DNA from: Paramacrobiotus metropolitanus
Taxonomy: Eukaryota; Tardigrada; Eutardigrada; Parachela; Macrobiotidae
Direction: 5' to 3'
DNA length: 64,000 nucleotides
Assembly: GCF_019649055.1 (NCBI RefSeq)
Contig: NW_026570251.1
Span: forward strand, 186,001 to 250,000
Shown here: positions 916 to 63,150 of the stretch, in pieces
How positions within the stretch are numbered: position 1 is the first letter of the stretch
Layout: every line of letters begins with the position of its first letter
Translations under genes and position numbers: made by a program
Notes under the pieces: model-generated
Databases searched by the model: none
Seen by the model: only the letters and a program-made list of their open reading frames with translations
Told to the model about the DNA's origin: nothing

Positions 916-1502
916 ATGCACCTATACGAAGGTGCCGATCGCCTTGTGTACGAACTGAATGCCGTTGACATGGAAGTGAACGGAATGCTCCAGAACGGCC
1001 ATGTTATCGACTTGGAGGAAATCGAGGGGAATCCTCCGCGTCTGATCGTCGATTTTGGATGCCCAACGCATACAGCGGTCTCGGTAGAATACGGAAAGCT
1101 TTTCCAGTGCTCCCCTAGACCAACCGACGAGCTACCGAGAGAGCGGCGAGATAATAATCCGTCAGAGTCAAGCCGCTGGAACGTTCAGGCGCTTCTACGC
1201 GCCAGTCCCGATCAGCCGTGGAAATGGTACCCCGCCCACGTTCTCCTGGCCCGCTTGAAGGTCTGGAGATGTACGCCCTGGTCGAGGTTATGTTGGACGG
1301 GTATGTCGTTCGCGAGCTGCTTCCACACGTTCAGATTCGAAAACCGCCATCCATGGAGGATTTGCGGAGCCGAACGCTCCAGGTGGGTCACTTTTTCATC
1401 ACGCTTAACCGTGTGGGTGACCGGTACTTGACGACAAAGGTTACGGATCTGTTGGTTTCTATTAGTCGCAAAACAGCAAAACAGATACGTTACGGAAATT
1501 AA
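916..1502 (+). pseudogene. N-terminal domain of F-box family, one-base frameshift
   Basis: The reading frame from 916 begins MHLYEGADRLVY and carries the family signature: AVDMEVNG, GHVIDLEE, LIVDFGCP, EYGKLFQC, then PWKWYPA. Compared with the intact copy at 16421, one G is missing near 1257 (intact reads RLEGLETYALVEV). The frame is lost there but resumes in another frame as EGLEMYALVEV, VRELLPHVQIRKPP and GDRYLTT, and stays open to 1502. No F-box part follows, so the copy is either N-domain only or truncated. With only one lesion visible, a base-calling error is possible. The domain itself is unrecognised. Confidence 0.75.
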
Positions 1503-4989: not shown

Positions 4990-5737
4990 GACGATTACCT
5001 CTAATCATACTAATACATATGCCACTTTGGCGTCCGTCTGTGATCGCGTTCTGTCGGCGCCCTGTCAAATGCGCTGCTCGTTGTACCCAGACAATACATT
5101 CCCCTTCCATATCGTAGCGTTCAGCTTGAAGAATGCGAATGCCAGTGCCGGGGAGCTTTGGGAACTACTTGAGCGGAACATGGATTGTTCTGACCTTCTG
5201 GATATGATACCGTAGCGCAGTGGACTGAGAGTGCGATTAACGAGGATTACAATGCTGACAAAAGGAGACTTACAGAGGTGCCGGTTCTATACTACGTTAA
5301 CACTTGTGCGATATTGACGTGTCCAGAGTATTATTACGTATATTCCTACCGGGTTTCTTCTACGTACTCGTATAAATACAACGCGTTGATAATGGTGGTG
5401 ATTACAAGTTAATTTAATGTGTTGGTGCAGATTTTGCTTAAGTACCAGACTGGTGATCCGCGTTCGGGTGCATACTGTTCCGACAAGAAGTGGACACTGG
5501 ACAACCTCAGTGATTTAGATATGAACAAACTGAACAAAATCTGTTTGGCGACTTTGGCGCGATGCGTGGAATTCGAAAAAAAAGGACGGCCCGACTCGTC
5601 AGTACGACCCGTATGAATCCGAGCCATCGTCCGAAGACGATAAGTGCAGTGGAAGCTCCGAGGAAGAATCAACGGAAAACGGCGCCTCTTCGGTAGAAGA
5701 GAGTATCGCAGAAGATGACCGACAAGAAGGCGTTTAG
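4990..5737 (+). pseudogene. C-terminal half of F-box family gene, decayed
   Basis: Bases from about 5010 read ASVCDRVLSAP, FHIVAFSLKNANA and LWELLERNMDCSDLLD. This parallels ASVCDRILW and VWDLLEMHMDCSDLLD of the intact copy at 16421-18544. At about 5200 a short deletion shifts the frame, although DNA similarity continues to a GAG|GTGCC donor near 5278. The last exon starts near 5431 after a TGCAG acceptor (ILLKYQTGDPRSGAYC, WTLDNLSDLDMNKLNKICL). It is frameshifted again in an A-run near 5580, after which the acidic SSEDD and SSEEEST tail continues in another frame to a TAG at 5735. The intron position matches the intact paralogues. The F-box motif itself is absent. Confidence 0.8.
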
Positions 5738-6131: not shown

Positions 6132-7678
6132 TTAGAAGAGCTGCCTTTTCCGGAAGTTGCGCAGCTCCCTTAATGCCAGCATAAAAAGCAGCGGATCGAC
6201 CGCAGTTTGCGCGGTATACACCATTGTGACAATGTTGAAAATATTGGTATCATAAACCCCGCCAAAGCTGATAAAACAATTGTACAGGAAGTAGGGCGTC
6301 AGTAAAAAGAAAACTGAAGCCGTTGATAGAGTCAACACCCAGAAGGCGCTGGCATTCTGCCGTTTCCGATGAGAGATACGAAGCCGCTATCCCGTTCCTC
6401 TTTGCACACTAGCTAAACTGCCGTCTTCCATATTGCGTAATGCGTCGTCACCTAAGAAAAGCCAGGAGTCAGACCAACTTCGAGATTCTGTCAGACGGTT
6501 TACCAGATTCCGTTGATTGAAAGCGTTGCCGCAACGTCGACCACAGAGAAACGGAAGTAATCGGTTGGTGAGACACACCGGGGCGGATGCGCTGCCGTTG
6601 ATGATGCTTGACGAGAATGAAAGGGTACACGGTGACAATTAAGAGAATCAGTAGCGTGAAGATAATTTCCGTGGCGGCATTCCATGCTATCAATTTGTCG
6701 CTGGTGATTAGGTTGATCATGCAGCCATAATCTTCTAATGGTAGCGCGTTAAATTTATTAATGATTACTCCTGGCAGCATTAACGCATGGATAACGATCC
6801 ACATTGAAAGACAAATAAGAGCGCCGACCTTCCTGAAAAATATTGGAATAAAAATCCAGTTTACTCGCAACAGGAGGTACTGTTACCACAAAAACAAACT
6901 AGAAACGATACAGAAAATACAAAAAAGTTTCATTTTTTTCTCCTAAATTTTGCGTTAGCTCATATAACTAAAACGCCGATTTCTATCAATGATGAATGAA
7001 GAAACATACTTAAGCTAAAATTATTCATACTGAAGTACAAGTACTGCAAATACAGCTATGCTAGTTTTTCCGGTAATGTACTGTTTTGTCTTTTTAACTG
7101 ATTTTAGTCAGCTTTATAAATAACTGAATAAAAAAATTAAAGTTGGTTTAGAAGGAGCCAGATGTAGAACTAGGCACGGAGGTCAATGGCACTGGCTGAA
7201 GTTATTTAATTACTAATAACTATTGCTGCCGCTTGCATAGTGACCAAAGGACAATCGGGTACCTGGTGTGCATTCGTTTATACGTGACAGGAAACGTGAC
7301 CGCCCAAAGCCGGTTAATCGTAATCAGTAGATGGCACAGCAGCGAAACCGATCCCACCACATAGGAGAAGTATAAATACAAGTCACAGAAGGTGATGCTG
7401 AACCACCAGACCTGGTATCCTCCGACCAGCATCGCCAGCGGACCGTTGCTTATCAGCACCACGAGATTTGTACCCAGCAGATTGAAAATATAGATGTAGA
7501 AAGGGTTCAGCAGTAACTCGCGTTTATGGATAAGAATGGACAGCACCATGGTATTGAAAACAATCGCCACGAAGCATATAATCAACCCACCAATGGTATA
7601 ATACGTCCAAGCAAAGTCCGAGACCATCGCCTTTGATGTGTTCGTCCTTGAGGCGTTGACATTATCGCTAGGATTCAT
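6132..7678 (-). pseudogene. rhodopsin-family GPCR with one in-frame stop
   Basis: Three minus-strand exons fit: 7678-7263, 6832-6504 and 6451-6132. The introns are 430 bases (CAG|GTACC to TTTTTCAG) and 52 bases (CTG|GTAAAC to TTTTCTTAG), phases 2 and 1, giving 355 codons with the stop. Seven hydrophobic helices follow in order: TM1 near residues 25-48, TM2 58-84, TM3 ending ITINRLWAV (an NRL in place of DRY), TM4 KVGALICLSMWIVIHALM, TM5 EIIFTLLILLIVTVYPFIL, TM6 WVLTLSTASVFFLLTPYFLY and TM7 AQTAVDPLLFML, where DPLLF stands in for NPxxY. The extracellular Cys pair (FCDLY, DYGCM) and N-terminal NAS and NTS sequons are present. The only lesion is TAG at 6389-6387, in intracellular loop 3 between TM5 and TM6. 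The ligand is unknown. It may be a recent pseudogene, a null allele or a sequence error. Confidence 0.75.
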
Positions 7679-9141: not shown

Positions 9142-9530
9142 TCCATGTCGTCGACTTGGAAGAAAAAGAAGGAAATCCGTTCCTAATGATTATCGGTTTT
9201 GATTGTCCAACTCAAATAGCGGTAACAGTTAAATGTGGTAAGCTTTTCATCTGCTCCAACAAGCTGTTCGATAATCTAGCAAAAGAATGACCAGACAACG
9301 GTTCCCCGAAAGGACACGAGTTTGACGCGCAGGCACTGCTGCGCGCCCTTCTTGATGGCCTTAGGAAATGGCATCCAGCTTAGGTTTTTTCGGTCGTTTG
9401 GAGGGTCTGGAAACCTATGTGCTGGTGGAGGTCATGCTAAATGGGCATTCTATCCGCGGAGTGCTACCAAACGTCCAGATTCGCAAATCACCACTGCAAA
9501 ACCGACCATCCCACCACTGTCTCGACAGCC
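9142..9530 (+). pseudogene. N-terminal domain of F-box family, 5' truncated and broken
   Basis: Resemblance to the intact N-domain at 16421 begins at 9145 with VVDLEEKEGNP and continues with IGFDCPTQIAVTV, CGKLFICS and a TGA at about 9288. It resumes with FDAQALLRA, a degraded RKWHPA, a TAG, and then, in another frame, GRLEGLETYVLVEV and VLPNVQIRKS to about 9515. The first 25 or so residues of the domain are missing and replaced by unrelated hydrophobic sequence. The order and spacing of motifs leave little doubt of the relationship. It cannot encode the domain. Confidence 0.75.
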
Positions 9531-12613: not shown

Positions 12614-13647
12614 TCAGAGGCTCAACCGTTTCACTGGTCGGCGATGATATTTCGATCGACTCTGCCGCAAACTGGACAGAGCTGCTAAACAGATTTTATT
12701 TAATTTCCGAACATCCAAACAATCCAGAGTGTCCAACGTCCAATCCTGTTTTTGAAACTGCGCCGAAGGACGCGCATCGGAGCTCTGGTACGCCTTTAGA
12801 ATCTACATAACAGGTAATTATTGCAGTTTTAGTGCACCACCGTAAATAACCCAAGCGTCACCTTTATGATCCGATGACAGTTTTCAGACTTTGACAGGAT
12901 CTGATCGGCCGTCCAGCTGGCGATCTTTTCCATATCTAACGGTCCCGTTTCAACCAAATGCTCCTCGAATACATCCCAAAGCAGCGCGGAGTCGAAACTG
13001 TTCAGAAGGAACACCGCCCGCTTAGCACGGAAGGAAATGTGGTATATGCCGGGATCGTATAACGACATGGCGTAATCGGTCCAGATTATGCGATCACACC
13101 AGGGCGCCAAGCGCGGATACGTATAGTCTAAATCAACAAAGTACTGTTCCACAGACCAGCGGGTTACGAGACAACCCCTTTCGTGCAGTCGGGCACCCCA
13201 GCAGATTTTCCTATGGCGGTGTGGGTTTTGCGCCAAAACCACGCGGTCAAGCCGGGTGCCAACGCTTTCCGCGGCCTGGCTAATATAGCTCAAGGCTCGG
13301 CCGACGTAGGTGTGCGTCTCAAAACAGGGCCTGCTCGCGTCACGGATGAAGGCATTACGTACGAATACGGTGCGTGTGGCTGGTGTGATGTGTTTGAAGA
13401 TACAAGAGTACGTGGCGTAAATCGAATTCCGTACCATATCAGGCAAAACGTCCTTTTTTCTGTTAAGCTTCACGCGGACATCGTAGCTGAGCTCCGGTGA
13501 GGTCAAAATCTCCTCCCAGAGATGACAAGTTCGCCGGCAGCGCACCCGGTCAATGGTGTCCAGTGAGAGGAAGACCTCTTGTAAAATCTCCGGTGGAAGA
13601 ACCAAAAGGACGTTGTCAGAACCTGGCTGCTTGCATTTCGTCTTCAT
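12614..13647 (-). CDS. F-box protein, two exons
   Basis: Exon 1 runs 13647-12862 and exon 2 12802-12614, separated by a 59-base intron (AAG|GTGACG to TATGTAG), giving 324 residues from the ATG at 13647. An F-box motif occupies residues 17-50 (LPPEILQEVFLSLDTIDRVR, CRRTCHLWEEILTSPE). The family core follows: CIFKHITPATRTV, WCDRIIWTDYAMSLY, RAVFLLNSF, LWDVFEEHLVETG and ASWTADQI. The last exon carries DARP, QDWTLDTLDCLDV and RKLNKICLAAL, then a basic end. F-boxes bind Skp1 and place a protein in an SCF ubiquitin ligase; the substrate is unknown. The frame stays open upstream of the ATG to a TTCGCAG acceptor near 13702, so this may be the 3' part of a two-domain gene whose N-domain lies at 13800-14549. 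That N-domain has a stop codon, so use of the internal ATG is possible. Confidence 0.75.
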
Positions 13648-13771
13648 TTCTGTCGTGAGTTCCCTGCCTTCTTGAATCGTTATGTATATAAACGCGATAC
13701 TCTGCGAATGCCTCTCTAAGATTTGTCACTCGTATCGACGATACCAGTGGCAAGGGAGTCAAAAACTGACT

Positions 13772-13782
13772 GGGGGGGGGGG
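13772..13782 (+). repeat. 11-base G homopolymer
   Basis: An uninterrupted run of eleven G between the F-box exon and the N-domain copy. It is unusual against the AT-rich background and prone to length error in sequencing. Confidence 0.85.
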
Positions 13783-13799
13783 CGACTCGGCTTTATAAC

Positions 13800-14549
13800 C
13801 TATAAAAAATCGACGGGGAGCAACCGCTTTTGAAGAACAGGGAGTGTCAAACTCAAACAATTTGCCGGTTGACACACCCCCTTTGCGCCACTGGGTGTCG
13901 TTTTGGGATCGTTGTCTGGAAGTTGCGTCTGAACTTCGCACCCAGAGCTCGAATCCTGAGAACAGCGAGGATGATCTGCTTCCGGATTTAGTAGATCTAC
14001 CATCTCTGGCTTCAGCAGAGTCCAGTACTCTTTAGCAACGCAGTCGAAGTATACGGCGAAAAAACTCGGTCGCAGTTTTCGACCCTGAATTGTCTCCTTG
14101 GAGGACAGGCGACGCACTTGAGTCCAGTGAAGCAGTTCGCGGGAACACTGACCAGCCAGCTCGATCTCCACCAAAACATAATCTAGCAAATAAGGCAACC
14201 CAGACATGATTCGTTTGGCCGGGTACCATTTCCACGGATGAGACGGATGGTCTCGCATCAGTATCTCGACTTGCTTTAGATACGTTGCCTCAGTGTCACT
14301 GAAGACGTTAGGGTGCCAACCGACACAGGGCCTACTGATGCTTTGTTTACCAGCGCAGTGGAAAATTTTCCCGTATTCAACGGGCACCGCTCGATGTTCC
14401 GAACAGCCGAAATCCACAATTAGATGCGGCGCGGCTCCTTCGACATCTTCCAGGCCAACAACGTGTCCGTGCTACTGGAGGCCATTGACTTCCACGTCCA
14501 CGGCATTCCATGTGTTCACGGCTCGCTTTTCGTTCTTGTACAAATGCAT
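13800..14549 (-). pseudogene. N-terminal domain of F-box family, premature TAG
   Basis: From ATG at 14549 the minus strand reads MHLYKNEKRAVNTWNAVDV, VNGLQ, then TAG at 14474-14472 where relatives have a Gln codon (GLQQHGH at 19222). The frame then continues unbroken: HGHVVGLEDVEG, LIVDFGCSEH, AVPVEYGKIFHC, HPWKWYPAKRIM and a stop at 13800. A CAG to TAG change is the only clear lesion. It stands head-to-tail with the F-box exons at 12614-13647 on the same strand, as in the intact genes, so the pair was probably one gene. Confidence 0.75.
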
Positions 14550-16420
14550 GCTGGCAAATTCTGACTGGTCGAGTTTTCTTAGGAGATGGAAGGTAGGAAT
14601 GATTGATAATCGTGGAAAAAAACTGGCGCCACCTTAACAAGGTTAATACGGCTTAACGAAAAACAATATTTACGAAAAGCAACTGATCGAATTCTTTGTA
14701 GACCGCCCACGTAAAACTTGAAAAAAATTATAATAACTGCAATGCTGCGGTCCATTAACAATATAGCACTACGCATCTCGATGACTTGAGCATCGCGTTG
14801 AGCGTGATGCATGAACTGCCTAAAACAGATTGCTGGTGGATTCCTTTGAATGACTGATGTTGTGGTTGCTTCTGATGATTAGCGTTGTTTTTAACCTCTT
14901 AAATTGTAGGCAATATATGTTGCTTTCATAGGTTAAAACAGTTTGTGTTATTACACAGTATGCTATACGTGTTTATATATTATACATCTTTACCGACTTT
15001 ACGATCATGTTATGCTTGTAGCTGAAGGTACAGCACTTATTGGATTAGTTTATGTTTACACCAGTTTAGTTTTTTGATAAGAAATTTTCTCATAGGAAGT
15101 TCCGTCGGATTTTGACCATATAAAAATTCCACCGGCAGAAGATTCCGTTGGCGTTTTGACATTGGCCGCAGCAAAATATTACTTCATGCGTGTATTTCAA
15201 GAAAATAGCTCATTGACTTCGCGCGAATGTTGTTCTCTGAAATTACCACATAGGGCTGCTGAAATAGTTTTGGGAAACTTTAAGTAAGCAGCATTATAAC
15301 TGGTACAGTACGTGCATAAGAGGCACACCATCTTTACATACAGTACAAGGCGTGTTACATACGTTACATACAGTACACTGATCGAAAGTGTACATGAACA
15401 ATGAACACAGTCGATTCTTGTGCCCCGATTTAGCGCTAAAAGCATCTACTATTGTATAGGCTTGCCTGCAAGCGCACCACCGGTTAAGATTTTTCACTAA
15501 CAATTGCGGTTTCTTTACGCAGTTTTCCTGTAGGTTGGTTGAAAAACCGTTCACGATCCCAAAAAGCGCATCATTTTTGACGCAGAAGACAAAGCGGAAA
15601 CACAACTTTCATGTGCACATGGATTATTTCGCTCTGCACTTTAGCCAAAACAAAAAACTGAGAAACAAAAAACAAAGAAATCTAAGTGAAACCTCTAAAA
15701 TGTTTCGAAATCTGCAGTGTTTCTTAATATCTACATAATGTTCCCTAAAATGTTTCCGAATCCCTTGTTTTGGGCAGAAAGCTGCACTCGGTAGTTCCGT
15801 GATTTCCGAAGGCGTGATTTTCCTTGATATTTGAACGTCACAAAATGGCGTATATTCTAGTTTCCTTAATTTACTTCTCGGAACATAAGCATTTATGCAG
15901 ATGTTCATATTGAACGTTCAATGTACTTAGGACGGCTCATTTTCCCGGAAGCTGAGCAGTCCCGCCAATGTTGCCAACGCGAAAGTCAACGCATTTTCCG
16001 CGGTCTGGAAAAGGTTACTTTGCAGTTTGCACAATTATAGAGATATAAAATATTAGCATTATAAAACGCCAAAACTAATAAAACAGGTGAACAGCAAACG
16101 TGAACCACGCACGAGAAGCTTTCCAGTTGGGTAGTGGACATTACGGATACATGAGACGTTTATCGCCTATCTGTTACCGTTTGTCAGTTGATAAGATGTA
16201 ATGCGCTTTTGTTCAAGCAAAACTTGATAAAATATCTTCTTCATTCTTTCTAAACGGAGATATCAGTTCTAATAACTGGTGCAATACGCGCTATTCAAAC
16301 GTGAGGAATGCGACATCGAAACACTTTTCAGTTTGAAGTCTAAATTCTGTCAGGTTAAATTGTTTCGCTTCTTAGTTCTTATAAACTTAAGTTTCAATAA
16401 ACCAGAAAAACCAATAAAGC
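14550..16420. other. spacer between divergent F-box copies
   Basis: The flanking copies run outwards (minus at the left, plus at the right), so this 1.9 kb holds both upstream regions. Several overlapping open frames on both strands at 15200-15900 match nothing I recognise. No clear promoter element was identified. Confidence 0.45.
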
Positions 16421-18544
16421 ATGCTTCTCTACGAAGATTCTGATCGCTTAGTGTACAAAATGAACGCAGTTGACATGGAAGTTGATGGAATGCTCCAGCA
16501 CGGCCATGTCATCGACTTGGAAGAAACAGAAGGAGTTCCTTCGCATTTGATCGTTGATTTTGGATGTCCAGGGCAGACAGCGGTCCCGGTTGAATACGGA
16601 AAGCTTTTCGCTTGCTCCACCAACCTATCCGATGAACTGCCGAAAGAATGGCAAGGGAACGGTTCCTCAGAGAACAACGGGTATGAAGCGCAGGCGCTGC
16701 TGCGCACCTGTCCCGCACATCCGTGGAAATGGCATCCAGCAAGGGTTCTTATCGGTCGATTAGAGGGTCTGGAAACTTATGCGCTGGTGGAGGTCACGCT
16801 AGATGGACATACCGTCCGCGAAGTGCTCCCCCATGTTCAGATTCGCAAACCTCCTTCGTTGGAGGATCTGCAATCCGGAATGTTCCAACCAAGCCACTTC
16901 TACATTACACTGAACAGGGTGGGTGACAGGTATCTGACCACGAATGCTCTGGTACGAGTGTCTTCTTACCAAGAAACCCAGGGGAAGGAGGAATGCCAGC
17001 TGATCTTGTCTCTGCGGACTATGTACCGGGATTCGACCTACATTTAGTAAATTTCTTTTTCCTATTTTTTCAACCGCTTCGCATTCGCTTTTACAGTCTT
17101 GTGTCAGAGTATAGCTTTTCGAAGCGGCCCTATCGTCTCATCGCATAATAAAGGAATAAACAAAACACTTTTAGTACCTCAGTTACTGGTTGACTTGTAC
17201 TTTAAAAGGTATTCTGTACTTACGAAGTATTTCCGGTTTTGTGTTAATTCATTTCACAAGGCATTTCGATAACGTTATGTTTTTGCGTGAATAGAGAAAG
17301 GACCATGATGGGTTCGTTGATCCAGGAGAAAGCGACAGTACTGCACCAACCGCTCGGGAACGCGGTTTGCTGTTACCGATAGAACTTCTGACAGAAGTCT
17401 TTCAGTCAATGGACGTCGTCCATCGATCGCGTTCGCGGCGCACCTGTCAACTGTGGGAAGGAGTGCTATCGTCCCCAATAGTGGCTCAGTTTGTTGCTGT
17501 CGAAATGCCTGCATATGACCGTTCGTTCACCCCAGTCCAAATTGCAACTGGCCTTTACGCAGTATACAGCGCGCTCTCCAAGCACATCGCTCCCGTCACA
17601 CGAACAGTTTGTATACGGAATCACGATCTTTCTTATTATAAGGTGAGAGAAAGTTGGGAAAGTATCACATCTGCCGGTGTTGTGATCAGATATATCCACC
17701 AAATCCTAGATTCTGCCGGTGGCTTCCGCATCAATCGTTTGGTGTTGTGCCAGTGGACAAAGATGGAGGAAGGGAGAGCCACATTTGTGGAATTCGTTAA
17801 CGACATAACTAATACACTTGCCCATATGGCGTCCGTATGTGATCGCATCCTCTGGCGGCATTCTCAGATACGCTACAAATTGTACCACAACAGATTTCAG
17901 TTCGACATCGCTGCTTTCACCTTGACGAACGTCAATGCCGCAGAGGTCTGGGATCTATTGGAAATGCACATGGATTGCTCTGACCTTCTGGATAAAGATA
18001 CCGTAGCGCAGTGGACAGAGGACACAGTTAACGGCGATTACAATGCCGATAAAAGGAGACTTGTCGAGGTATCGGTTCTGTAATGTATTAACACCAGTAG
18101 AACACTGGCGTATGGAGATTTCTTTTACCCACATTGCCACAATGTCCTATCAATATTATATCATGGTGCTGGCAACGGTAGCAGCAAGTTAGTAGCAGCA
18201 GGTTATTGGTTGTATTCGTGCAGATTTTGATGGAGTGCCAAACTGGCGATCCACGTCTGGGAGCCTACTGTTCCAGTAAAAAGTGGACACTGGACAACCT
18301 AAGCAGTTTAGATATGAGAAAACTGAATAAAATCAGTTTAACGAATTTGGCACGTTGCGTGGCATTTGAAAAAGAGTTCGCCGCCCTTCGTCAGTACGAT
18401 CCGTATCAGTCCGACCCATCATCTGAGGACGGCGAGAGTAGCGGGAGCTCAGAGGAAGAATCAGCGGAAAACGAAGCATCTTCGGCAGAACCGGAAATTA
18501 AAGAAGTTGAGGCACAAGAAGCCTGCAACAAGAAGATCCCTTAA
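16421..18544 (+). CDS. two-domain F-box family protein, apparently intact
   Basis: The best plus-strand copy. Proposed exons are 16421-16951, 17295-18068 and 18224-18544, giving 541 residues; all introns are phase 0. The N-domain carries MLLYEDSDRLVY, AVDMEVDG, QHGHVIDLEE, LIVDFGCPGQTAVPVEYGKL, HPWKWHPARVL, YALVEVTLDGHTVREVLP and DRYLTT. The F-box follows (LLPIELLTEVFQSMDVVH, RRTCQLWEGVLSSP), then the family core (SALSKHIAPVTRTVCIR, MASVCDRILW, AEVWDLLEMHMDCSDLL, VAQWTED). The last exon has ECQTGDPRLGAYC and WTLDNLSSLDMRKLNKI and ends in an acidic Ser/Glu tail. The 18069 intron position is conserved in the family. The first donor (CTG|GTACGA) is inferred. Unspliced, the N-domain frame stays open to 17047, and AATAAA occurs near 17144 and 17153, so an N-domain-only transcript is possible. 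Probable SCF substrate receptor; substrate unknown. Confidence 0.75.
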
Positions 18545-19221
18545 CAAATTCTGTTTTCCTCGGTCGAGTAACGTATTGTGTAGGGAGACGACATCGTACT
18601 GAGAGAAGGTGTAAGAAACGAGTAATTCGTTGAAAGCGTTGTTTTTGCAGTTCAGGTCAAACTATGATGTACTTAAACATTAGCAAAGATTCGATGCGAA
18701 ACGTTGAAGTTTTTGCTTATTTTACATGACAAAGCAGGTTGGACGTCAATTCACAAAGCATGCGATTGAACAAGGTGAATTTAGCTTTCATTCTGCTACA
18801 CAGTGATCGTGTCAGTACAAATCGTTATATCGTCATGTTCGAAGGTTATTAATAATTACACTTGTTCAGTTCTACATTATCAACAAGTAATCACTCTAAA
18901 CTGAATTTTCCGCGTAAACAACAGCCTTTGCTGCAATAACGAATGAGGAAACGGTGCTTAAAATAAACGGTGCGAAACGGGGTGTCTAATGTCTACAATA
19001 TACTAGGGTGGGACGAGAGGTGCCTATAAATATGCTCTGATTATTAATGTTCATTTAACTCTTCATGACCTGACATATTTTTATCCGTTAACGTCTAACT
19101 GCATCAAACAAGTGATTGCCATTGGTCTGTTCAGCGTTGCTAGCTAATCGAAGAGAGAATAAATCTGAAAGAGGCACAGACAGGCTACTGGACCTCTCCG
19201 CATTCAGCACACGGTTGGCGC
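18545..19221. other. spacer between tandem F-box copies
   Basis: No gene seen. It is the 3' flank of the intact copy and the 5' flank of the broken copy at 19222, both on the plus strand. Confidence 0.45.
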
Positions 19222-20768
19222 ATGGAGACCTTATACGGAAACGGCAAAGAGCCGGTGTGCACATGGAATGCCGTGGATGTGGAAGCCGATGGACTACAGC
19301 AACATGGGCACGTTGTCGGGTGGGAGGATGTCGAAGGCGCTGCGTCTCGCCTGATCGTGGATTTCCGGTGTCCGGAACAGCGCGCGGTGCCCGTTGAATA
19401 CGGGAGAATTTTACACTGCTCTGGCTAGAAGAATCTCAACAATCACATCGATTTCAGTTATCAGGAGCCACCTCCTCAGTTTTCTGATGCGCCCGCGGAT
19501 GTCAGTCACACTGACGTGGTGGTTTTGCTCCGCGATCGCCCTGCTCATCCCTGGAAATGGTATCCAGCTAAAGTGCTCATGTTCGGCTTTCGATATTTAC
19601 GAGAATTTCTTTTGGTGGAGGTAATGCTTGCTGGGCATTGCTTTCGCGATCTACTCCCGTATCGCAATTGCGTTTCCGCAGTCCAAAGAGGTACTTCAAT
19701 ACAGAAAACTCCAGCCGGGTACTTTTGTACTAGGTACCGGCTCCAGTCAATGTCGGCGTTTGCTTGAGCAGCTGTCTCGTATCAACCAGCTCCACGAGAT
19801 ACCGGTACAGCGTTTCAAAGAGGCGTTTGAACATTTCCGTGTCCGCATTTCCGATTTGAACTTGAACCAAGCTGAAGGTAATGCATGTTCGCTCAGAAGA
19901 AAATTAATGTAAACTAGTTAAGTTGAACCCAAATTTGGTGGAAATCATGGATTTTGACGATAATGAGAACACTTATCAAAGTCACGAGTTTCCGGTATAC
20001 GCAAAAAAATCAACAGAAGCCGGTCAGTTGCAGTTGCGATGTCGCAAACACGCCTAAGTTATGCAAGTTACGGAGGCAAGAAAGATGACTTCAGTCTGGT
20101 ACTTCCACCAGTAATTCCCCAGGAGATCTTCTGCTTACTTGACACCATTGACCAGCAGCGTTGCCGACGCACCTGTTATCTGTGGGAGGAATTATAATCT
20201 CGCTGGAGCTCTGCCGCGTCGTCCATCTGCAGCTGGCAGAAGGGCACTGGAATGCGGATCCAGTACGGAAATCAGAATTACGGCGCATTTGCGTGCATTT
20301 TTAAACACCTTACGCCGGTCACACAAATAATCTGCATTCGGCATATTAACAACTGCGGTATGTACTACTCGAAGCCGGAACCACACGCGCATGCCGGCTA
20401 AGCACAGGTGGCGAAAGCCATTATGGCCCAAATTGGGCGCGTGATTCTGTATCATCGCGATTTCATTATCGTTGAAAAAGATATCGATCTGCAGCAATAT
20501 ATTGCCGTTCAGGCTGCATCGTACACCCGTCACGCTTTATGGTGTGATCAGATAGTCTGGAAGGACCTTCGGCTGTTGTTCCACACGTCAGCAGGCTGCA
20601 CTGGTCGCTTTGGCATCCCGTTTGCAGCTTTCCATCTGGGCAGCATCAACGCGGCCCAGTGTCGGAGTCTGTTTGAAAAACATTGCGACTATGAGTTCCG
20701 GTTGGACGTGGAGCGAATTGCGCAGTGGATTGCTCACCAGATCCGGTCACAGTCCATCTAAGGCTGCA
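19222..20768 (+). pseudogene. two-domain F-box family copy, multiply broken
   Basis: The N-domain begins METLYGNGKEPV and TWNAVDVEADGLQQHGHVV, with LIVDFRCPEQRAVPVEYG, then TAG at 19426. The same frame resumes after it (HPWKWYPAKVLMFGFRYL, LVEVMLAGH). It shifts by one base near 19670 and continues as FPQSKEVLQYRKLQPGTFV. The F-box part starts near 20090 (LVLPPVIPQEIFCLLDTID, RRCRTCYLW-like), hits TAA at about 20200, shifts again near 20260 (IFKHLTPVTQIICIR) and ends with ALWCDQIVWKDL and ERIAQWIAHQIRS before TAA at about 20759. The last exon is missing. At least five lesions show a dead copy in the same orientation as its intact neighbour at 16421. Confidence 0.8.
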
Positions 20769-20821
20769 ATCAAAATCGTTAATGGACAGTGCTATCAACA
20801 CTTTACACATGAGCTGACTGT

Positions 20822-21015
20822 ACTGGCAACATTTGTAGAATCATACGGTTCACGAAAACTTCGAAGTTCTAAACTGATTGTACAATGTGCCACATTTTAT
20901 GCGGCATCTGCCAGGTTTTATCGTTTGCCAGTTGCCAGGGTGTCCAGGTTTTTTCGCTTGCCATTCCACTGGTAGCTGCCACTGCCACGTTTTACTCCCT
21001 GCCCCTGCCGTTGTA
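20822..21015 (+). repeat. dispersed repeat, copy 1
   Basis: About 190 bases (landmarks CTGGCAACATTT, TGCGGCATCTGCC, AGGTTTTATCG, GCCACTGCCAC, CCCTGCCCCTGCC) that recur in reverse orientation at 31485-31680. It sits exactly between the truncated end of the F-box copy ending at 20768 and the 5'-truncated copy at 21160. It has no coding capacity. Probably a short non-autonomous element. Confidence 0.65.
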
Positions 21016-21159
21016 GACAGTCCGCTTCCCTAAGATCCCTTTCCAAATAGGGAGCCACTAGACCACACACGGCGAAGCTCTGGAACGCCCGTGGAGTTTG
21101 GCAAATACGAGGTTAATTGAAATGCCGGAAACTTTAGCAAACCGATAAAGTCACACATG

Positions 21160-21596
21160 GACGGCTTCTCACAGATCTTGCGACGTCCCCTTGCTCCAAG
21201 AACAGTCCTCGATCTCCGTAGCCTTAACACAGCGCAGATTTGGGATGTGTTTGAAAGACACTTGGTCGACACGCAGCCGGTTAATGTGGAGGTAATCGCA
21301 AAGTGGACGGCGGAGCAGATGCGGTCAGATTCCTATAAAGGATGCTGCCAGATCTTAGAGGTGACCTTGGGGTTGTTTTTTGTTTTGTTATAGCATGTCA
21401 CGGCTGCGATCCGCGACCTTTTCAGCATCACTCACAACAGGATTGGATGTATGGCACACTTGACCGTTTAGATGTTCTGAAGGTGAACAGATTCTGTCTG
21501 TATGCACTGTCTCATTGTATGACGAAGGCAGGAGATTTGTCATGGTCCACCAGCGAAAGCTCTGACGGGGAACCGGAAGGGCGCTATATTGATTAA
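21160..21596 (+). pseudogene. C-terminal part of F-box family gene, 5' truncated
   Basis: Similarity begins near 21195 (VLDLRSLNTAQIWDVFERHL, VEVIAKWTAEQMRSDSYKG) and runs to the conserved donor GAG|GTGACC at 21360. The last exon follows after a very short interval: HGCDPRPFQHHSQQDW, TLDRLDVLKVNRFCLYAL and a stop at 21594. The intron would be only about 31-38 bases, and the only AG (TTATAG) does not restore the frame, so splicing is probably defective. The F-box and everything upstream are missing, replaced by the dispersed repeat at 20822. Confidence 0.7.
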
Positions 21597-22393
21597 GTAC
21601 TAGAACTAACTAACTGCTGCAAACCTTTGCGGTCTAAGAATTTATTTGTAAGAAGGTGAAAGCAATCAGTAAGAGTCTGCATGTTTTTAATGGGTAAAAA
21701 TAGATGCTCAGTGCTCCACCAGCGGATGGTTCTTAACCTTCGAGCAATATCTACACACAAAGTCGCAACAGTAGTGGTAACACTGGACAGTAGTGGTAGT
21801 GGTAGTGTAGCAGTAGTGGTAGTGTGGTGCTCAGTTTTCTGGGCTGGAAAAGTGTTACTTTACGCTCTCAAAGGCACACGAAATTTCTGCGCATCATCAT
21901 AATGGTCGCATGTCGTTAAGCTCAGTGGCAAAAAAAAGAAATAAGTTCACATTAAAAATTTTATTTAATTCATGGATCCAACCAAGATTTACCAATCTGT
22001 CAGCATTCCTTCAACCGACTAAATCGTGGAGGTTGGTTACTTCTTTGGTGATTGGATGATGCGCCGTCCACCGGTTTGTAGGAGCGCGTCCACCTACATA
22101 TTTCGACCGATCAAACAACGAGTATATTCAAACACACTCCCTTCCTTTAGCCGTAGCCGCAAAATTTTACGACGCATAGTGTTCCGAAACAGCTGCACCA
22201 TTTCTTCTAACGATCGCTGGACTATTAATTGCTGAGTAAATGCCGTCTGAGAGAGGCAGTGAAATGAATTTGAACCTATGGTCCCCGGTTGCTTAGCGAA
22301 CTTTCCGGCAATAAAACATACCCCTTTAGCGAAGAACGTGCCGAACGTTCGACTTATTGCGCAGTAAAAGAAAGAAACGCACGACGTATTTAC
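21597..22393. other. spacer with GTAGTG microsatellite
   Basis: A degenerate run of GTAGTG and AGTAGTGGT units occurs at about 21767-21830. The frames crossing it are repeat-derived. Nothing else is recognised before the terminal repeat at 22394. Confidence 0.5.
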
Positions 22394-22512
22394 TGCACGT
22401 GTGTAGCCGGCAAAACAGTTAACATGTTAACGGTTAACGCATTAACATGTGAGCCGGGCTAGAATGTTAACGTTAACATTCCCGCCGGGCCCAAATGTTA
22501 ACGACCAAAATC
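22394..22512 (+). repeat. left terminal inverted repeat
   Basis: The left end of the 2.6 kb element, ending at GACCAAAATC. It contains at least five GTTAAC hexamers and two GCCGGGC blocks. Confidence 0.8.
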
Positions 22513-23793
22513 ATGCAAGCTGTTCACTCAATCTCCGCAGCAAAATGATAGCAGTTCACGAATCATGGACTAAAATCAAGTTCAAATCACATTTAGACCC
22601 GGTCTGAAGTCCTGTACGAATTGCCTGTTCTCAAGCAGTGACAATACTGATCTTGTTCGTGTACTAAATTAAACTGGCATAGTTCGGTGCGGCACCGTAA
22701 TGTACAGTAATACTGTAGGCAATAATAATAGCAATAGCTATAATAGCAATAGTTGGAGAAATACGAAAACTACAAAATTTAACTGCGCCTTAATACACAA
22801 TTGTTCGAAACTGCTGACGAAAATTTATGTTACTTTCAAAAGCACGTTATTTTAAAATTTGAGGCATTAATTTTGCAGTTTTTCATGAAGCGGTCATGTT
22901 ATATTACATTTACAACAGAGGAGGTTTTAATTTCCAAAAGTGGACTTCTTTTGCGCTTGCTGTTTGTTAAACAAGGAAAAGCAATTTTAAAGGAAGTAAA
23001 GCTTTTTGTTAACGCCGTTAACAGGCGAGCCGGGCTGGGATGTTCACGCTATAACTGTGCGGTAATCGGATTCTGCTAAATTATCAACATAAACCGCTCT
23101 CATTAAACGCTTGTACAAACGCTTAATTTTCTGCTAAGGCTAATACTTTCTACGTTCAAGGCTACTCGTTCTTTGTGTTTTCTTTATTCTGTATATTTAG
23201 TCTGCGATCTGCACTGAATTTGAGAACATGAGTGCTCGGCGGGGATGCTCACATTTTTAAAAAAAATTATGCATGTCGAATATCCATGCCTACGATTATC
23301 GCTGTTGGATTAAATCGTAACTTGCTCTTTTGTGCGATTAAGTATGGAATCTCAATGGGTGAGCTGCGGCTTATGAATATGTCACGGTCATTTATATTGA
23401 CTGGCCTCCTACAAAAAAATGTAATGTAAGACAAAACCGGTACGTTTTTTTAAAGTTTTGTTATGAATTTCGTTTACACCTACGAAAACACAATTCTTTT
23501 TTGTTTATGATCTTTACGCTATACGAGCATTTAATAATTTACCCGTTCGATAGGCTGTACAGTAGTCAACATTGCGGTTATAAACATTCATAGGTGCCGG
23601 GCGAAGATGTTACCATTTTAAAAATATGGATGCCGACTACGAGCACCTACTTATGTTTGTAGGATGCCGATCACATGTACCGTGAACAGATTTGTGTACA
23701 GCAGTAAACAGTTGTTTTTTTATGCACTGCATAAATGCACCCCTATCCACGTCGAATCCAAAAACGCCTCTGCATGTGTGCTGGAGCCTGTAT

Positions 23794-23982
23794 GCTGGCT
23801 GTCTGTCTACCCAACAGGCTAACAGCCGACCGCAGATAGGCACAGTAGTAAGCTAAGTTAAGTAATTAATAAGCAGAAAGTAGGCGTAGAAATTTTGAGC
23901 CGAAATATACTTCTAGTTTAGATCGTAAATTATTGATTCAGGAAAACTGCTGATTTCTTTTCGAAAAACAATAATTGTAACT
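23794..23982 (+). repeat. internal direct repeat, copy 1
   Basis: Begins GGCTGTCTGTCTACC and ends CGAAAAACAATAATTGTAAC. It matches 24493-24670 in the same orientation with scattered differences and small gaps. Confidence 0.75.
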
Positions 23983-24492
23983 CGCATATGCTTCAAAGGA
24001 AAAATTGTAATAGGTGATAAAAAATGAGTGTAAAATTAGGGTGAAAAAGAGAATTTCTGGAGAGGGGAATGGATATGAGAAATTCAGAAATGGGCAGCTC
24101 TGGTGTGAGTGATATATTTTGGCCAGGTTTTTGCGAAAAGAGACTTTGGCATTTGGGGTGGGCACAAAATTAATATATTTCTGCAGCGAACAGAGTGCGT
24201 GCTTTGTGCGACAAGTGCGGAGCATGACAAACTGTGACCAACAACTGCTATAATGTTATGCCACATACTGTATAAATAGATATCCACCGACATTAAGGCA
24301 GTTGACAAGCGTTACAAAATTACCACCGCCCGGAACCACCGTTAACATTGGTGCCGGGCGGGGATGTTACGCTAACACGGACGACCCGGCAAGGATGTTA
24401 ACGCATATTATGTGCGATAGTAATCTCACAAATTAATAATAAACTGTCACAGCATTAATTGCACCACAATTGCAGATACACAAATTACAGAT

Positions 24493-24670
24493 GCTAGGCT
24501 GTCTGTCTACCTAGCAAGTTAAACAGCCGAGCGCAGGTATGCGCATTGGTAAGTAAATAAGCAGAAAGTATGTGTAGAAATTTCATGTCAAAACATACTT
24601 TTAGTTTAAGTCGTTAATTACTGATCCAAGAAATTTGCTGATTTCCTTTCGAAAAACAATAATTGTAACT
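24493..24670 (+). repeat. internal direct repeat, copy 2
   Basis: The second copy of the block at 23794-23982. It shares CTGTCTGTCTACC, AAGCAGAAAGTA, GTAGAAATTT and the CGAAAAACAATAATTGTAAC end. Confidence 0.75.
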
Positions 24671-24883
24671 GACTGATATTTATGTCATCTTCTTGTTCCC
24701 GCAATTGTGCGTTTTGTTTCCGTTTTATGCCCCTTTTGCTTGCTATTTTGCGACATTCATTTTTCAACCCCTTAATAAAAACGTTTCTTGCAATAGCGGC
24801 AAAATAATTAAACTCGATGCTGGTAAATATCATTAAATACATTAGAGGATTTGTTTACCCATATATCCATGTACAGCGTGTAC

Positions 24884-25002
24884 GATTTTGGTCGTTAACA
24901 TTTGGGCCCGGCGAGAATGTTAACGTTAACATGTTCGCCCGGCTCACATGTTAATGCGTTAACCGTTAACATGTTAACAGTTTTGCCGGCTACACATGTG
25001 CA
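24884..25002 (-). repeat. right terminal inverted repeat
   Basis: The inverted partner of 22394-22512. It lies only 37 bases from the stop codon of the minus-strand F-box gene that ends at 25039. Confidence 0.8.
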
Positions 25003-25038
25003 ATCGGCTTGTGCCAGTATCTGGTATATAACCTAATT

Positions 25039-26836
25039 TTACACTGAAAATCTTTGGCTTTTCACCTTGTCCTTTCCATCACTTTCGCCTATCTCTTCAC
25101 CTTCTCCAGGGGTTTCACTAATCGCCGACGAGGCGTTGCTCGCCTCGGTCACGTAACCGGACAGAACACACAAGCAGATCTTATTCAGTTTCCGAATGTC
25201 CAGACTGTCAAGATCTTCCAAAGTCCAGTTCCACTGGAAATAGCTCGAAGCGGGACGCGGATCACTGCTCTGATACGCCATCAGAATCTTTAAAAAAAAC
25301 CATGATCGTTGCAAATGGATAGGCAGTGCAAACGAAGCTCTCCAGCCATACCTCGGTAATCTGACCGCACTCTGAGAATTTTGACCGGGTGTGATATGCA
25401 GTCCCCTGAGTAATACGATCCATATCCACGAGCTTTCGCTGCTGGCAATGTTCCTCGAATAAATCCCAAATCTGCAGGGCGTCAGTGTGGTGCAGACGGA
25501 AAACCGCCCGTGGAATATGGAAGTGGATGTTGTATACGGGTGCAGAGACCGATAGAGAATAATCGGTCCAGATTATGCGATCACACCATACCGTGTGACG
25601 CAAGTATGTTGCAGCTAAACTGCTCAAGTAGCCTGGCAAAGTACGGCTCGCATTCTCATTGCTAAGCCGACGATGGGACAGAATCACGCGTTCAATGCGT
25701 GCACCGACAGTGCCGACGACCTTGCCAATGTAGCCCAACGCTTGACCGGCAACTGTATAATCTTCGAATTGTGGGTAGCGAAGAGTTTCGCTAACGGACT
25801 CGCGTATGCAGATGGTGCGCGTGACTGGCGTGATGCACTTAAAAAGACAAGCGTATGCGCTGTAATGCGGAATCCAGTGATCTGCCGCCAACTGAACATG
25901 AACATCCTGACCACGTTCCGACGCCGTCAGCAGTTCTTCCCACAGTGGACAGACCCGGCGGCAGCGCTGCCGGTCAATAGTGGCCAATGACTGCAGTACG
26001 TCCTTTAAAATTTCCGGCGGAAGTCTTAAAGCTGGGCTGTCGGCGTTGACGCATTCCGCATCCATCTGATTATTTTGGCTATGTGCTTCAATCGATAATA
26101 CTTTCACAGGATACCTTATGGAGACGCGGTAATAATCAATCATACTTTTGAGCGTGGAATAGCGCACTGGTCTCGCGCTGGTTCGTTGGAGATAGTGGAT
26201 CGTCGAATTGCAAAAGTATTCAATGTGCAGCTTGTGTTCCTCTTGGAGCTCACGGAGGAACTGCCTCTGCATCGCAGAATCCAACAAGAAGTATTCTTCA
26301 GGAACACCGCACAGCCGCATCACAAATACACCCGGCGAGAGTTGTCGGTGGCGGAGTTCTGCTTTGGCCAGCGGCATGCGCATCTGCGCCTGCGGAAGCA
26401 GCTCTCGTGTGCGATAACATCCCAGCATCACTTCAACGCATGCCCATTCTTTTATATGAAGCCCGAGCATTAGCAGTTCACCGAGATACCACTTCCAGGG
26501 ATGACTAGGATGGTTCCGAATTAGAACCTCCACGTCAACGTCATTGGTATCATTGGCAGAAGCAAGGGCGCCGGACAATTTATCTTTCAGGTGTTTGAAA
26601 TTGTATTTCAGCGAATTTTCTCTGGTGCGGTGGTTGGCAGAGCAGTCGAAAATTTTCCCGTAATCAACCGGTACCGCTCGCTGCTCTGGACATCCGAAAT
26701 CCACAATGAGACGTGGAGCGTTGCCTTCGACATTTTCCAGGCCGATAATATGGCCATGCTGAAGCAGCCCGTCCATTTCCACGTCCACCGAATTCCATGA
26801 GTACACATACCGCGTTTCGTTTTCGTATAAATACAT
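25039..26836 (-). CDS. two-domain F-box family protein, intact
   Basis: The clearest complete member. Exon 1 (26836-25352) encodes 495 residues in one frame and shows the two domains fused without an intron. The N-domain has MYLYENETRYVYSWNSVDVE, GHIIGLENVEG, LIVDFGCPEQRAVPVDYGKI, HPWKWYLGELLMLG, VEVMLGCYRTRELLP and LSPGVFVM. A linker follows, then the F-box near residues 273-310 (LRLPPEILKDVLQSLATIDR, RRVCPLWEELL). The family core ends in WCDRIIWTDYSLSV, AVFRLHHTDALQIWDLFEEH. A 64-base phase-0 intron (GAG|GTATGG to TTTAAAG) leads to exon 2 (25287-25039): ILMAYQSSDPRP, WNWTLEDLDSLDIRKLNKIC and an acidic tail. The total is 577 residues. Probable SCF ubiquitin-ligase adaptor; substrate unknown, N-domain unrecognised. 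Confidence 0.85.
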
Positions 26837-37270: not shown

Positions 37271-37833
37271 ATGGGCGGAGGGGATAGTGAAGAAGATCTG
37301 TCGAAATTTACATTTGTCGAGCTGACTGATGTGTTATCTGGTATCTTTGATGAGGTGTTCGCTGTATCCAGTACAAATTCGAAAGTCGGGAAAGTCCTTG
37401 AAAGCCATAAAGACGCTCTGCAGAAAATCCCATCCCTGCTGAAGGATCATCATATACGCATTCATGAAGTCGCCCTGAAAGCGGAAACCGATCTGAAGAT
37501 GGAAAAAGAGCGCCTGACGCAGCTAATGCAAGAACCTAACCTCGAACCCCAGGCTGCACGACGTTATATTCCAGTACCGGCGTACCCTGAAAATTCACAT
37601 GCGAATCGAACATACGCTGATGCAGTCAATCATGGAGTTTCTTCGAAGACTGCAAGCGGCAACATCCTTTTGCTGAAGCCCAGAGCTGCACCACCATCCA
37701 TCCATGCCCGAAAATCTGCCAACGAGATGAATTCCTTTTGCCAGAAGCTAACTGATGTCCTTCCTGAAGGAATGGACTCTGCCAACATCACTTGCATGCG
37801 ACCTGCAAATGGTAAGTCTGTACTCGTTGAATT

Positions 37834-38360: not shown

Positions 38361-38490
38361 TTGGTGGCTCCAGTGGTCGTCGAGGTTCGGCCTCGACACT
38401 GCTGGCAGGTCAGCATTCGTCGACTGAATTCCCGACAACCGGCAGTGAGTGTTACTAATGTTTCGCTTTGATTGAGCTTACTTCCGTACT

Positions 38491-38874: not shown

Positions 38875-39016
38875 TGAAAATTTTACTGGATTCGACATTG
38901 ACTTAGGACCAGGATTATAAGGTTTAAAGGTATGAAGGAAAGGCATGAGGCTGTAAGAGTGAACCATGACCTTTGGGAAAGAGAGCAAGCTGTAAAAGTG
39001 GAACGTGTCTCCGACC

Positions 39017-40165: not shown

Positions 40166-40166
40166 T

Positions 40167-40188
40167 TTCCAGTTCCGCGGAACTGGAA
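40167..40188. repeat. perfect 22-base palindrome
   Basis: Two 11-base arms TTCCAGTTCCG / CGGAACTGGAA with no spacer, one base after the 44-base palindrome, in the gap between ORF1 and ORF2. Confidence 0.9.
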
Positions 40189-44077: not shown

Positions 44078-45628
44078 ATGCATTTGTACGAAAACGGTAT
44101 TCGAAGTGTTTACGGGTGGAATGCGGTGGACGTGGAAATTGATGGGCTGATGCAACACGGCCACGTTATCGGTCTGGAGAACGTCGAAGACAAGTCGCAG
44201 CGTCTGATCGTAGATTTCGGATGTCCGACACTGCGGTCGGTACCGGTTGATTACATGACGGTGATCGACTGCTCCAACAAATATGCGGTCCGATACAGCT
44301 GGCTGAGCCATGAGTTTACCGACTGGACGAACGATTTATCTGGCGCGCCCAGCACCCGTTATTCCGGCTTGGAGGCGCTAATCCGCGACCATCCCATCCA
44401 CCCATGGAAATGGTATCCGGCAAAATTACTCATGTTCGGCTTCAGATATCTGCAACCACATGCGCTGGTTGAAGTGCAGCTGCCAGGTTATACAGTTCGC
44501 GAACTCCTTCCTGAACGACAGCTGCGTGTGCCACTCTCGGAGGAAGAGCGTCAGTGTCGAGCACTGTCACATAACCATTTCATACTGCGGTCTTGCACAA
44601 TCCCTGCAGAGTGTCAGTTAATGTGGAAATCAGTAGTGGCAGCACAGTTGTGGAACAAAATGCAACATGACTGCGCTGTGCGTGTTATATCTGTTGTTAA
44701 CGGCACGATGAGCTATCTTGGACGACGCAGCGACGCACCAATGAAAGACGAGGATGTTGTAAGTCAAAGCAGAAAGCACACCCTATTAGATTACGTTTGA
44801 GACTCTGATTTTCGGATTAAAATATGCGACCTTACCGAAAAGCCCTAATTATTTTATTAAGTCACATGAGATGTTTTTGCTGAACAGATAAAAGTGTTTG
44901 CCAACAGCCGCGATCCAACAAGCAAGGATTTTAAAGGCAAAGATGTACCCGAACTTGCAGAAGCAGACAGGAAGGCCAGTTTCAGTTTATCTCTGCCACC
45001 GGAAATTCTTATGGAGGTCTTTCAGTCGCTGGATACCATCGACCGGTTGCGCTGCCGACGAACCTGTCAGTTATGGGAGACGCTTTTAGCCTCGCCGCAG
45101 ATAGCCCGCAGTTTTTATGTGCAGTTGCTTCAGCAGCATACCGACATTCATCGCAATACCAATTACGGTGCCTACGCGAGCATCTTCAAGCACATCACAC
45201 GGGATACGCGCAACATCTGCATAAGAGACACCTCCGTTCGCCAACAATGTAGCGGTGGGGTGGAATGCCGCACAAACGCCGGTGCGGTGATGGGTTGCAT
45301 TCAGCAAATGCTGGAGCATACCGGCATTTGTCTTGATCGGCTGGTGCTGTGCCAGCGTACAGTGACCATCTTAGCGACCAGCCGGCCATTGCATGATTAT
45401 TTTAAAGGCGTGATGAACTCGTATTCAGACCTGGCTAGGTGTTATGATCGCGTCATCTGGGCGGATTGCTCGCTGAGCTACAATATCAGCGGTTCCAAAA
45501 TCCAAGTTCGCATACCGCGTGCGGTCTTCGGTCTGCGTAGCGGCAATATGGACTTCATAGTTTGTGGTACGTTCGATACTCGTTTTGAATTCGCGGAGAC
45601 ATCAGATGTAAAAAAGCTTAAATGTTAA
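44078..45628 (+). CDS. two-domain F-box family protein, C-terminus lost
   Basis: Exon 1 (44078-44758) gives the complete N-domain: MHLYENGIRSVYGWNAVDVE, MQHGHVIGLENVE, LIVDFGCPTLRSVPVDY, HPWKWYPAKLLMFGFRYL, LVEVQLPGYTVRELLP and LSHNHFILR. A consensus donor (GTT|GTAAGT) and a 129-base intron lead to exon 2 (44888-45628), phase 0. Exon 2 carries the F-box (LPPEILMEVFQSLDTIDRLR, RRTCQLWETLLASP) and the family core (SIFKHITRDTRNICIR, CYDRVIWADCSLSY, RAVFGLRS). After about 45545 the sequence departs from all relatives and stops. The usual terminal exon (DPRP, KLNKI) was not found downstream, so a frameshift or truncation is likely. If translated it is 473 residues with both main domains. Confidence 0.7.
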
Positions 45629-45996: not shown

Positions 45997-46193
45997 TCAG
46001 CGCAGTGGAAATTGTCCCGTAACCAACGGGCTCCGCGCGCTGGCCGAGACATTGCCGAAATCCCCTATGAGGCGTGGTGCCTCTCCTTCCACCTCTTCAA
46101 TACAACGTACCCATGCTGCTGCAATCCGTCGCCTTCCACATCCACGGCATTCCATGTGTACACCGATCGTCGGCTGCTTTGGTACAAATGCAT
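45997..46193 (-). pseudogene. first half of F-box family N-domain, frameshifted
   Basis: From ATG at 46193 the minus strand reads MHLYQSSRRSVYTWNAVDVE, GDGLQQHGYVV and then loses frame. It continues in another frame as EEVEGEAPRLIGDFG and a degraded PVGYGT region to about 45997. It is only the first 60 or so residues of the domain and is oriented tail-to-tail with the gene at 44078. Confidence 0.7.
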
Positions 46194-62428: not shown

Positions 62429-63150
62429 ATGTGCTTGTATAACAACGAATACGACGACGACGACTATGTGCAAGGAATACAGTGAATGTGGATGGGATTT
62501 TGCGACACGGCGAGGATATTGACCTGATCGGTGTCCAGAACAAACGATGCCACCGGCTCACAACATCTGATCGTAGATTTCGGATGTCCTGCACGGCGGG
62601 CGGTGCTGGGCAGCTACGAAAAAGCTTTTGACTGCTCATGTCGGAACATTGTACGAGACAACTGCTTAAAGCAAGCATGCCTTTAACCAATGGGCCAACA
62701 AATCCCACAAATCCCTCCGTGGGTGCGGATAATCCCGACGTGGAGGCATTGCTCCGTGATCATCGAAATTCTTCTTGGAAATGGCATCCAGCGAAGGCGA
62801 TCACGTTCCATTCGAATGACATACGTAATTAATCTCGCTTTGTTGGATGTGACGGTACCGAACCGTGTCATATTCGCGAACTATTGCCCGCAGACCAGTT
62901 GCGGTTACCACTGTCGGACAAAGAACGCCGGCGTAGATAAGTTCAGCCAGGGAATTTTGTTAAGCGGTCGCCCATTTACCCTGATGGGTTTTGGACTTCC
63001 TTAAAGCCAGTAGTGACAGCACGATAGCGCCTGGAAATACAACAGCAGACTTGTATAGGCACCGCGCATATTACTTCTGTCGATAGCGAGACAGTGGATT
63101 TTATCTCCTGGAGAAGCGAAACACCGGTGGAGGAGGAGGTACCGTTAGTT
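62429..63150 (+). pseudogene. N-terminal domain of F-box family, multiply frameshifted
   Basis: ATG at 62429 reads MCLYNNEYDD. In other frames follow NTVNVDGILRHGEDI, QHLIVDFGCPARRAVLG, FDCS, DVEALLRDHRNSSWKWHPAK, RELLPADQLRLPLSDKERR (with one gap) and a tail KPVVTAR, TCIGTAHITSVDSETVDFIS ending near 63150. The tail corresponds to SVVAAQ, RVISVVNGTMSYL of the gene at 44078, so the whole N-domain plus linker was present. At least four frameshifts and one TAG. No F-box part was found downstream. Confidence 0.75.

Follow-up and report, generated by a model that had tools for sequence, protein, structure and literature searches.

The window analysed here, a stretch of 64,000 nucleotides from the tardigrade Paramacrobiotus metropolitanus (contig NW_026570251.1, positions 186,001 to 250,000), contains members of what is probably a large, actively duplicating gene family, whose proteins join a pair of Tudor units like that of the fragile X protein FMRP to an F-box and a rapidly changing C-terminal domain (C-domain). 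The N-terminal domain (N-domain) is identified as a tandem Tudor/Agenet pair of the type found at the N terminus of FMRP, and, judging from the biology of other F-box proteins, the family members are most likely substrate receptors of SCF ubiquitin ligases. An earlier note on this DNA had proposed an expanding two-domain F-box family with an unrecognised N-domain; the family stands, and the N-domain proved to match a known family by a chain of profile comparisons and by structure search.

The motifs of the window N-domains seemed to resemble FMRP, and this presumed likeness prompted the sequence tests. The identification is based on a chain that leads from the window type through a second subfamily to FMR1, together with the fold ranking obtained with Foldseek. 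In hhalign, the window-type profile A3 (19 sequences) and the second-subfamily profile A8 (10 sequences) matched each other with a probability of 99.5 over 193 columns, and A8 matched the FMR1 of the same genome with a probability of 96.8 (pairwise E value of 3.1e-10, 139 columns). A3 reached FMR1 with a probability of 78.5 (85.4 in the control run) over 56 columns in Tudor 2. The corresponding controls, 100 shuffled FMR1 sequences, attained at most 21.5 with A3 and 9.5 with A8, and reversed FMR1 gave 0.1 and 0.2. An hmmsearch run with A8 against six frames of selected genome loci plus the window recovered FMR1 with an E value of 5.2e-7 and the window copies at 25265, 44078, and 16421 with 2.1e-11, 2.2e-9, and 7.4e-9, respectively. 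AlphaFold2, run on nine window sequences or pieces, predicts two beta units together with a region of beta-alpha-beta-beta-alpha topology, and in the structure search of the Protein Data Bank (PDB) with Foldseek, ranks 1 to 7 are FMRP N-domains (E values of 3.3e-5 to 1.4e-3), the next family being Spindlin1 (2.5e-3). The earlier note, which had called for such a prediction and search, had read two small barrels into the N-domain and had speculated that the second is of the Tudor/Agenet kind; both beta units test as Tudors, the first one included.

The genome's own FMR1 gene (L069, C5:3433812 region) was found with the Pfam family Tudor_FRX1 at an E value of 7.9e-11, and Pfam assigns to it Tudor_FRX1 (8.5e-13) and KH_9 (5.2e-17). 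The same genome search returned 26 weaker places up to an E value of 10, three of them above the cut-off, and several of the matches read as two-Tudor proteins. Among related genes, Tudor_FRX1 was above the cut-off in L070 (3.6e-7) and below it in L080 (3.5e-5), L073 (1.3e-4), L078 (0.009), and L079 (0.14), and it was the best or sole Pfam family for each of these five. Locus L079 (C65) consists of two tandem two-Tudor genes with an F-box behind the Tudors (Pfam E values of 1.9e-4, above the cut-off, and 0.0033, below it); L080 has an F-box-like sequence that was recognised by eye and is absent from the Pfam listing. A further branch on C106, C209, and C54 (L070-L072, L074/L080) has Tudor 1 on a separate exon, and its Tudor_FRX1 matches are the clearest ones apart from FMR1 itself. 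Another two-Tudor branch is located on C242, C36, C46, C44, and C89 (query L081; 59 matches from 154 candidates) and reaches weakly to second-subfamily loci. The FMR1 gene itself forms one unbroken frame across the Tudors, the KH0, and the KH-like and RGG-like parts (the last two by eye), and it therefore looks intronless from the Tudors to the RGG-like part.

The F-box is a true one, as the earlier note had assumed, since PF00646 exceeded the curated Pfam cut-off in three window copies (E values of 4e-7 for 25265-26836, 1.9e-9 for 12832-13647, and 2.9e-5 for 45011-45625). The C-domain behind it had no Pfam family above the cut-off in the window proteins, and neither an FBA nor an FTH domain was listed after the F-box at a Pfam E value of ≤1 in the four C-domain-bearing proteins of the eight scanned. 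The earlier note was right about a two-domain family, and its description was incomplete in that the architecture also includes a third domain at the C terminus and a tail that recurs among the copies. The N-domain and F-box/C-domain halves were aligned and modelled separately; a joint alignment misplaced F-box pieces under the N-domain.

The best-preserved gene (25039..26836, minus strand) has N-domain, F-box, and C-domain in a 524-codon frame (26836-25262, including the stop). From its N terminus, it encodes Tudor 1 of the FMRP type (residues 16-66, 26639..26791; AlphaFold2 strands, hmmsearch, Foldseek), Tudor 2 of the same type with the PWKWY motif (residues 100-150, 26387..26539; AlphaFold2, Foldseek, alignment of the family profile to the genome's own FMR1, hmmsearch), a KH0-like region of predicted beta-alpha-beta-beta-alpha structure (residues 171-239, 26120..26326; AlphaFold2 at low confidence, Foldseek), the F-box (residues 270-304, 25925..26029; PF00646), and a C-domain, delimited by conservation and modelled at low confidence as alpha/beta (25352..25885). 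Removal of 64 bases bounded by GT and AG (25351-25288) would yield a protein of 577 amino acids ending at 25039, an end point that fits the coordinates given in the earlier note; its predicted last exon (25039..25287) encodes a tail with WTLEDLDSLDIRKLNKICL. By eye, other copies are followed by similar tails, which are also seen in the second subfamily; the pattern WTL / LDxRKLNKIxL recurs after several of the copies and, in a looser form, in a distant subfamily. Repeat units of GTTAAC/TTAACATGTTAA occupy 24900-25000, directly past the stop of this gene. The next-best gene is the one at 44078..45628 (plus strand), with exon 1 (44078-44758, N-domain) closing at a GTAAGT donor and exon 2 (44888-45628) comprising F-box, C-domain, and a divergent C-terminal end; the predicted intron of 129 bases (44759-44887) gives a frame of 473 amino acids, and further in-frame acceptors are present. 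A GT donor occurs at the same place behind the N exon in seven of the nine loci examined (five GTAAGT, one GTAAGC, and one GTGAGA), while the donor is changed in L027 and L019 has no pattern match. An additional donor-pattern row for L037 was judged to be a chance match. By reading, N-domain and F-box lie in one frame also in L012 (524 codons) and L016 (591 codons).

Genome searches, in which only the best candidates were scored (150 of 1080 for the F-box, 150 of 726 for the window-type N-domain, and 150 of 912 for the second type), point to a family of at least 290 loci, because the lists of the two N-domain types do not overlap. The window-type query gave 229 matches from the 726 candidates, and the 150 listed rows merge to at least 141 loci; those of the second-type query merge to at least 149 loci, none shared with the window-type set. 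All 150 scored F-box candidates, the best of 1080, were above the cut-off. Paired, identically scored matches on opposite strands were observed at C8 (about 1037969-1044920) and C132 (about 15231-22230); these may represent both haplotypes of a single region, in which case family counts could be inflated. At 103 of the 141 listed N-domain loci, an F-box/C-domain match (set of 167 loci) lies no more than 3 kb downstream on the same strand; the corresponding counts are 4 for the opposite strand and 10 for the upstream side. Conversely, 57 of the 150 listed F-box hits have a listed N-domain locus upstream on the same strand, and 7 on the opposite strand.

Codon comparisons between copies, which the earlier note had proposed, were performed with the Nei-Gojobori method on profile-aligned codons, keeping pairs with synonymous divergence (dS) of 0.02 to 1.2 and nonsynonymous divergence (dN) below 1. 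For the N-domain, the median dN/dS was 0.43, and none of the 152 pairs exceeded 1; for F-box plus C-domain, the median was 0.49, with 2 of the 165 pairs above 1. Pooled by part, the ratios were 0.29 for the F-box and 0.53 for the C-domain (34 pairs), and 0.32 for Tudor 1, 0.38 for Tudor 2, 0.66 for the linker, and 0.58 for the KH0-like part (9 pairs); since the pairs share sequences, decayed copies are included, and the pair sets differ between parts, only the broad pattern counts. That pattern indicates constraint overall, apparently strongest in the F-box and the Tudors and looser in the C-domain and the KH0-like part.

The predicted fold suggests a KH0-like part behind the Tudors. It is put forward from the fold alone, because KH0-only profiles, built from both subfamilies and from four distant members, scored within 100 shuffles when compared with the KH0 of FMR1. 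The KH0-like parts of the two subfamilies match each other with a probability of 94.8, Pfam lists a nonsignificant KH_SLS1_2 match in the region (E value of 0.22), and KH_9 was listed for FMR1 alone among the ten proteins or pieces scanned, some of which are without a KH0 region. No KH1, KH2, or RGG part follows the N-domain in the window proteins, where F-box and C-domain take that position, and no KH_1 was listed at a Pfam E value of ≤1.

Several of these observations weigh against the proposed interpretation: the KH0 profiles just described, and the dN/dS values with their nonindependent pairs, decayed copies, differing per-part sets, and filter for dN below 1. To these are added, for the N-domain, a weak AlphaFold2 model (mean predicted local distance difference test score, pLDDT, of 56) and a poor Foldseek superposition (template modelling score of about 0.2, root mean square deviation of about 19), so that the FMRP domain arrangement is not reproduced. 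The hmmsearch match of A3 to FMR1 had an E value of only 0.0036, PDB sequence searches, run with a single protein as well as with the 19-row profile, gave no FMRP match, and Pfam on 19 window-type members yielded Agenet in one of them (0.065) and no significant FMRP match. A PDB fold search with the C-domain model (mean pLDDT of 56) gave no match at an E value of ≤0.001. Finally, 38 of the 141 listed N-domain loci have no F-box match and 93 of the 150 listed F-box hits have no listed N-domain locus upstream, in part because the searches list the best-scored candidates only.

Within the window, tblastn with seven window proteins detected 11 copies or pieces of the architecture on both strands, in agreement with the count of at least ten, from intact to decayed, in the earlier note, whose idea of birth-and-death turnover we judge to be right. 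Of the best E values against another copy, the weakest is 1.8e-10, for the 46193 fragment, and the strongest is 1.9e-92, for 44078 compared with the 25265-26836 protein; these values exclude a chance origin of the similarity. Matches to both N-domain and F-box/C-domain extend over 14549-12832 and 26836-25265 (minus strand) and over 16421-18080, 19231-20752, and 44078-45619 (plus strand); those to the N-domain only cover 916-1484, 9144-9514, and 62482-63129 (plus) and 46193-46054 (minus), and those to the C-domain only 5009-5289 and 21193-21387 (plus). In the copy at 12832..14549 (minus), a single stop (14474-14472) interrupts the N-domain, and the F-box/C-domain frame is intact. The copy at 16421..18544 (plus) consists of an N-domain open reading frame (16421-17047), an F-box/C-domain frame (about 17325-18083), and a tail frame to 18544; divergence sets in behind the second Tudor, the junction between N-domain and F-box is ambiguous, and the start codon of the 17409-18080 open reading frame, for which no Pfam family was listed, falls within the F-box. 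Both this copy and the 25039 gene had been described as apparently intact, which holds for the latter but not clearly for the former, whose N-domain frame stops at 17047; the 44078-45628 gene is better preserved than 16421. Reading of the tblastn matches further revealed, all on the plus strand, an N-domain copy whose reading frame shifts near 1250 (916..1484), a C-domain fragment followed by tail-like sequence (5009..5289), a decayed N-domain fragment (9144..9514), a decayed copy with stops in both parts (19231..20758), and a divergent, decayed N-domain (62482..63129). A C-domain fragment (21193..21390, plus) and an N-domain fragment with the beginning of Tudor 1 (46054..46193, minus) were assigned by tblastn. 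The window also holds a non-long-terminal-repeat-type mobile element in pieces (37271-42645, plus; endonuclease-like PF03372, E value of 1.9e-5; reverse transcriptase PF00078, 1.5e-33) and a rhodopsin-family receptor fragment (7223-7678, minus; PF00001, 7.6e-12), and it has no Rfam match. In the genome as a whole, a search for a tardigrade SAHS protein by way of lipocalin families gave a few hits, and the one that was read looked by eye like an ordinary protein of the fatty-acid-binding kind.

In the mechanism that we favour, the F-box would bind Skp1 and place the protein in an SCF ubiquitin ligase, whereupon the target would be ubiquitinated. The Tudors of FMRP dock on a methylated protein or a ribonucleoprotein (RNP) component, and the conserved Tudor pair of the family may likewise dock on a common partner of this kind, whereas the variable C-domain, together with the KH0-like part, would set the choice of target; both roles are read from the pattern of constraint. 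Duplication and divergence would then yield many receptors. A bolder version, in which the methyl-reading front end of FMRP was turned into hundreds of receptors whose Tudors dock on methylated RNPs or chromatin and whose C-domains track changing targets, e.g., proteins of mobile elements or viruses, so as to diversify a degradation-based defence, appears quite unlikely to us.

Since the FMRP N-domain dimerises, the Tudor module might instead pair with the genome's own FMR1 or its partners, N-domain to N-domain, and the family might tune FMR1 by ubiquitination or competition. The FMRP-like module, the retained FMR1 gene, and a mammalian precedent, SCF-Fbxo4, which degrades Fxr1 (PMC5688124), fit this idea, but a single target poorly explains why there are hundreds of divergent copies and why their C-domain varies, and we regard the idea as unlikely. 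Little credence is given to the view that the copies are selfish or mostly neutral, such as antidote-like F-box genes or hitch-hikers of mobile DNA with little cellular role: the many decayed pieces and the reverse-transcriptase element in the window would suit it, as would the concentration of 52 of the 141 listed N-domain loci on two contigs (C1 and C31), but most filtered pairs have a dN/dS well below 1, 139 of the 150 listed N-domain matches, many of them short, are by eye free of in-frame stops, and the donor closing the N exon is kept at most loci examined. It is similarly improbable that the N-domain belongs to another tandem Tudor/Agenet kind and merely resembles FMRP. Spindlin1 and plant Agenet (1.6e-2) do come next in the Foldseek list, and the KH0-like part is unconfirmed by sequence; yet FMRP ranks first, A3 and A8 both match FMR1 (the sequence used for direct comparison), and Tudor_FRX1 was the sole Tudor family listed in the Pfam scan of related branches, although Pfam holds other Tudor families, too.

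The FMRP-type Tudor and F-box fusion resembles known systems in part only. With the FMRP/FXR N-terminus (4ova, 4qvz, 4qw2, 2bkd; PF18336, PF17904) it shares two N-terminal Tudors in the same order, a likeness detected by profile, via the second subfamily, and by Foldseek, and in the family model a beta-alpha-beta-beta-alpha element that may correspond to KH0 by fold comes next; it differs in having an F-box and a new C-domain in place of KH1, KH2, and RGG, and in its hundreds of loci compared with one recognised FMR1 gene in the genome. Expanded F-box families exist in nematodes (FBA/FTH) and plants, with a presumably substrate-binding variable region, clustered duplicates, and pseudogenes. 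The tardigrade family shares these traits with them, but its F-box is preceded by a Tudor pair of the FMRP type, and no FBA/FTH domain is among the Pfam matches of the window proteins at an E value of ≤1. SCF-Fbxo4 also ties an F-box protein to the fragile X family, with the difference that there the FXR protein is the substrate (PMC5688124), whereas here the FMRP-type module sits within the F-box protein. A search of titles and abstract openings, in which subscription journals and bioRxiv were thinly covered, retrieved no protein combining an FMRP-type Tudor with an F-box and no tardigrade F-box expansion. The combination of domains thus looks new, in a known kind of family.

If the interpretation is correct, a module of which the genome has one recognised FMR1 gene would have been taken up by a rapidly evolving ligase family and multiplied to hundreds of loci. 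The family would then offer naturally occurring versions of the FMRP tandem Tudor with which its binding partners could be mapped, and would make receptor turnover testable beyond the F-box families of nematodes and plants.

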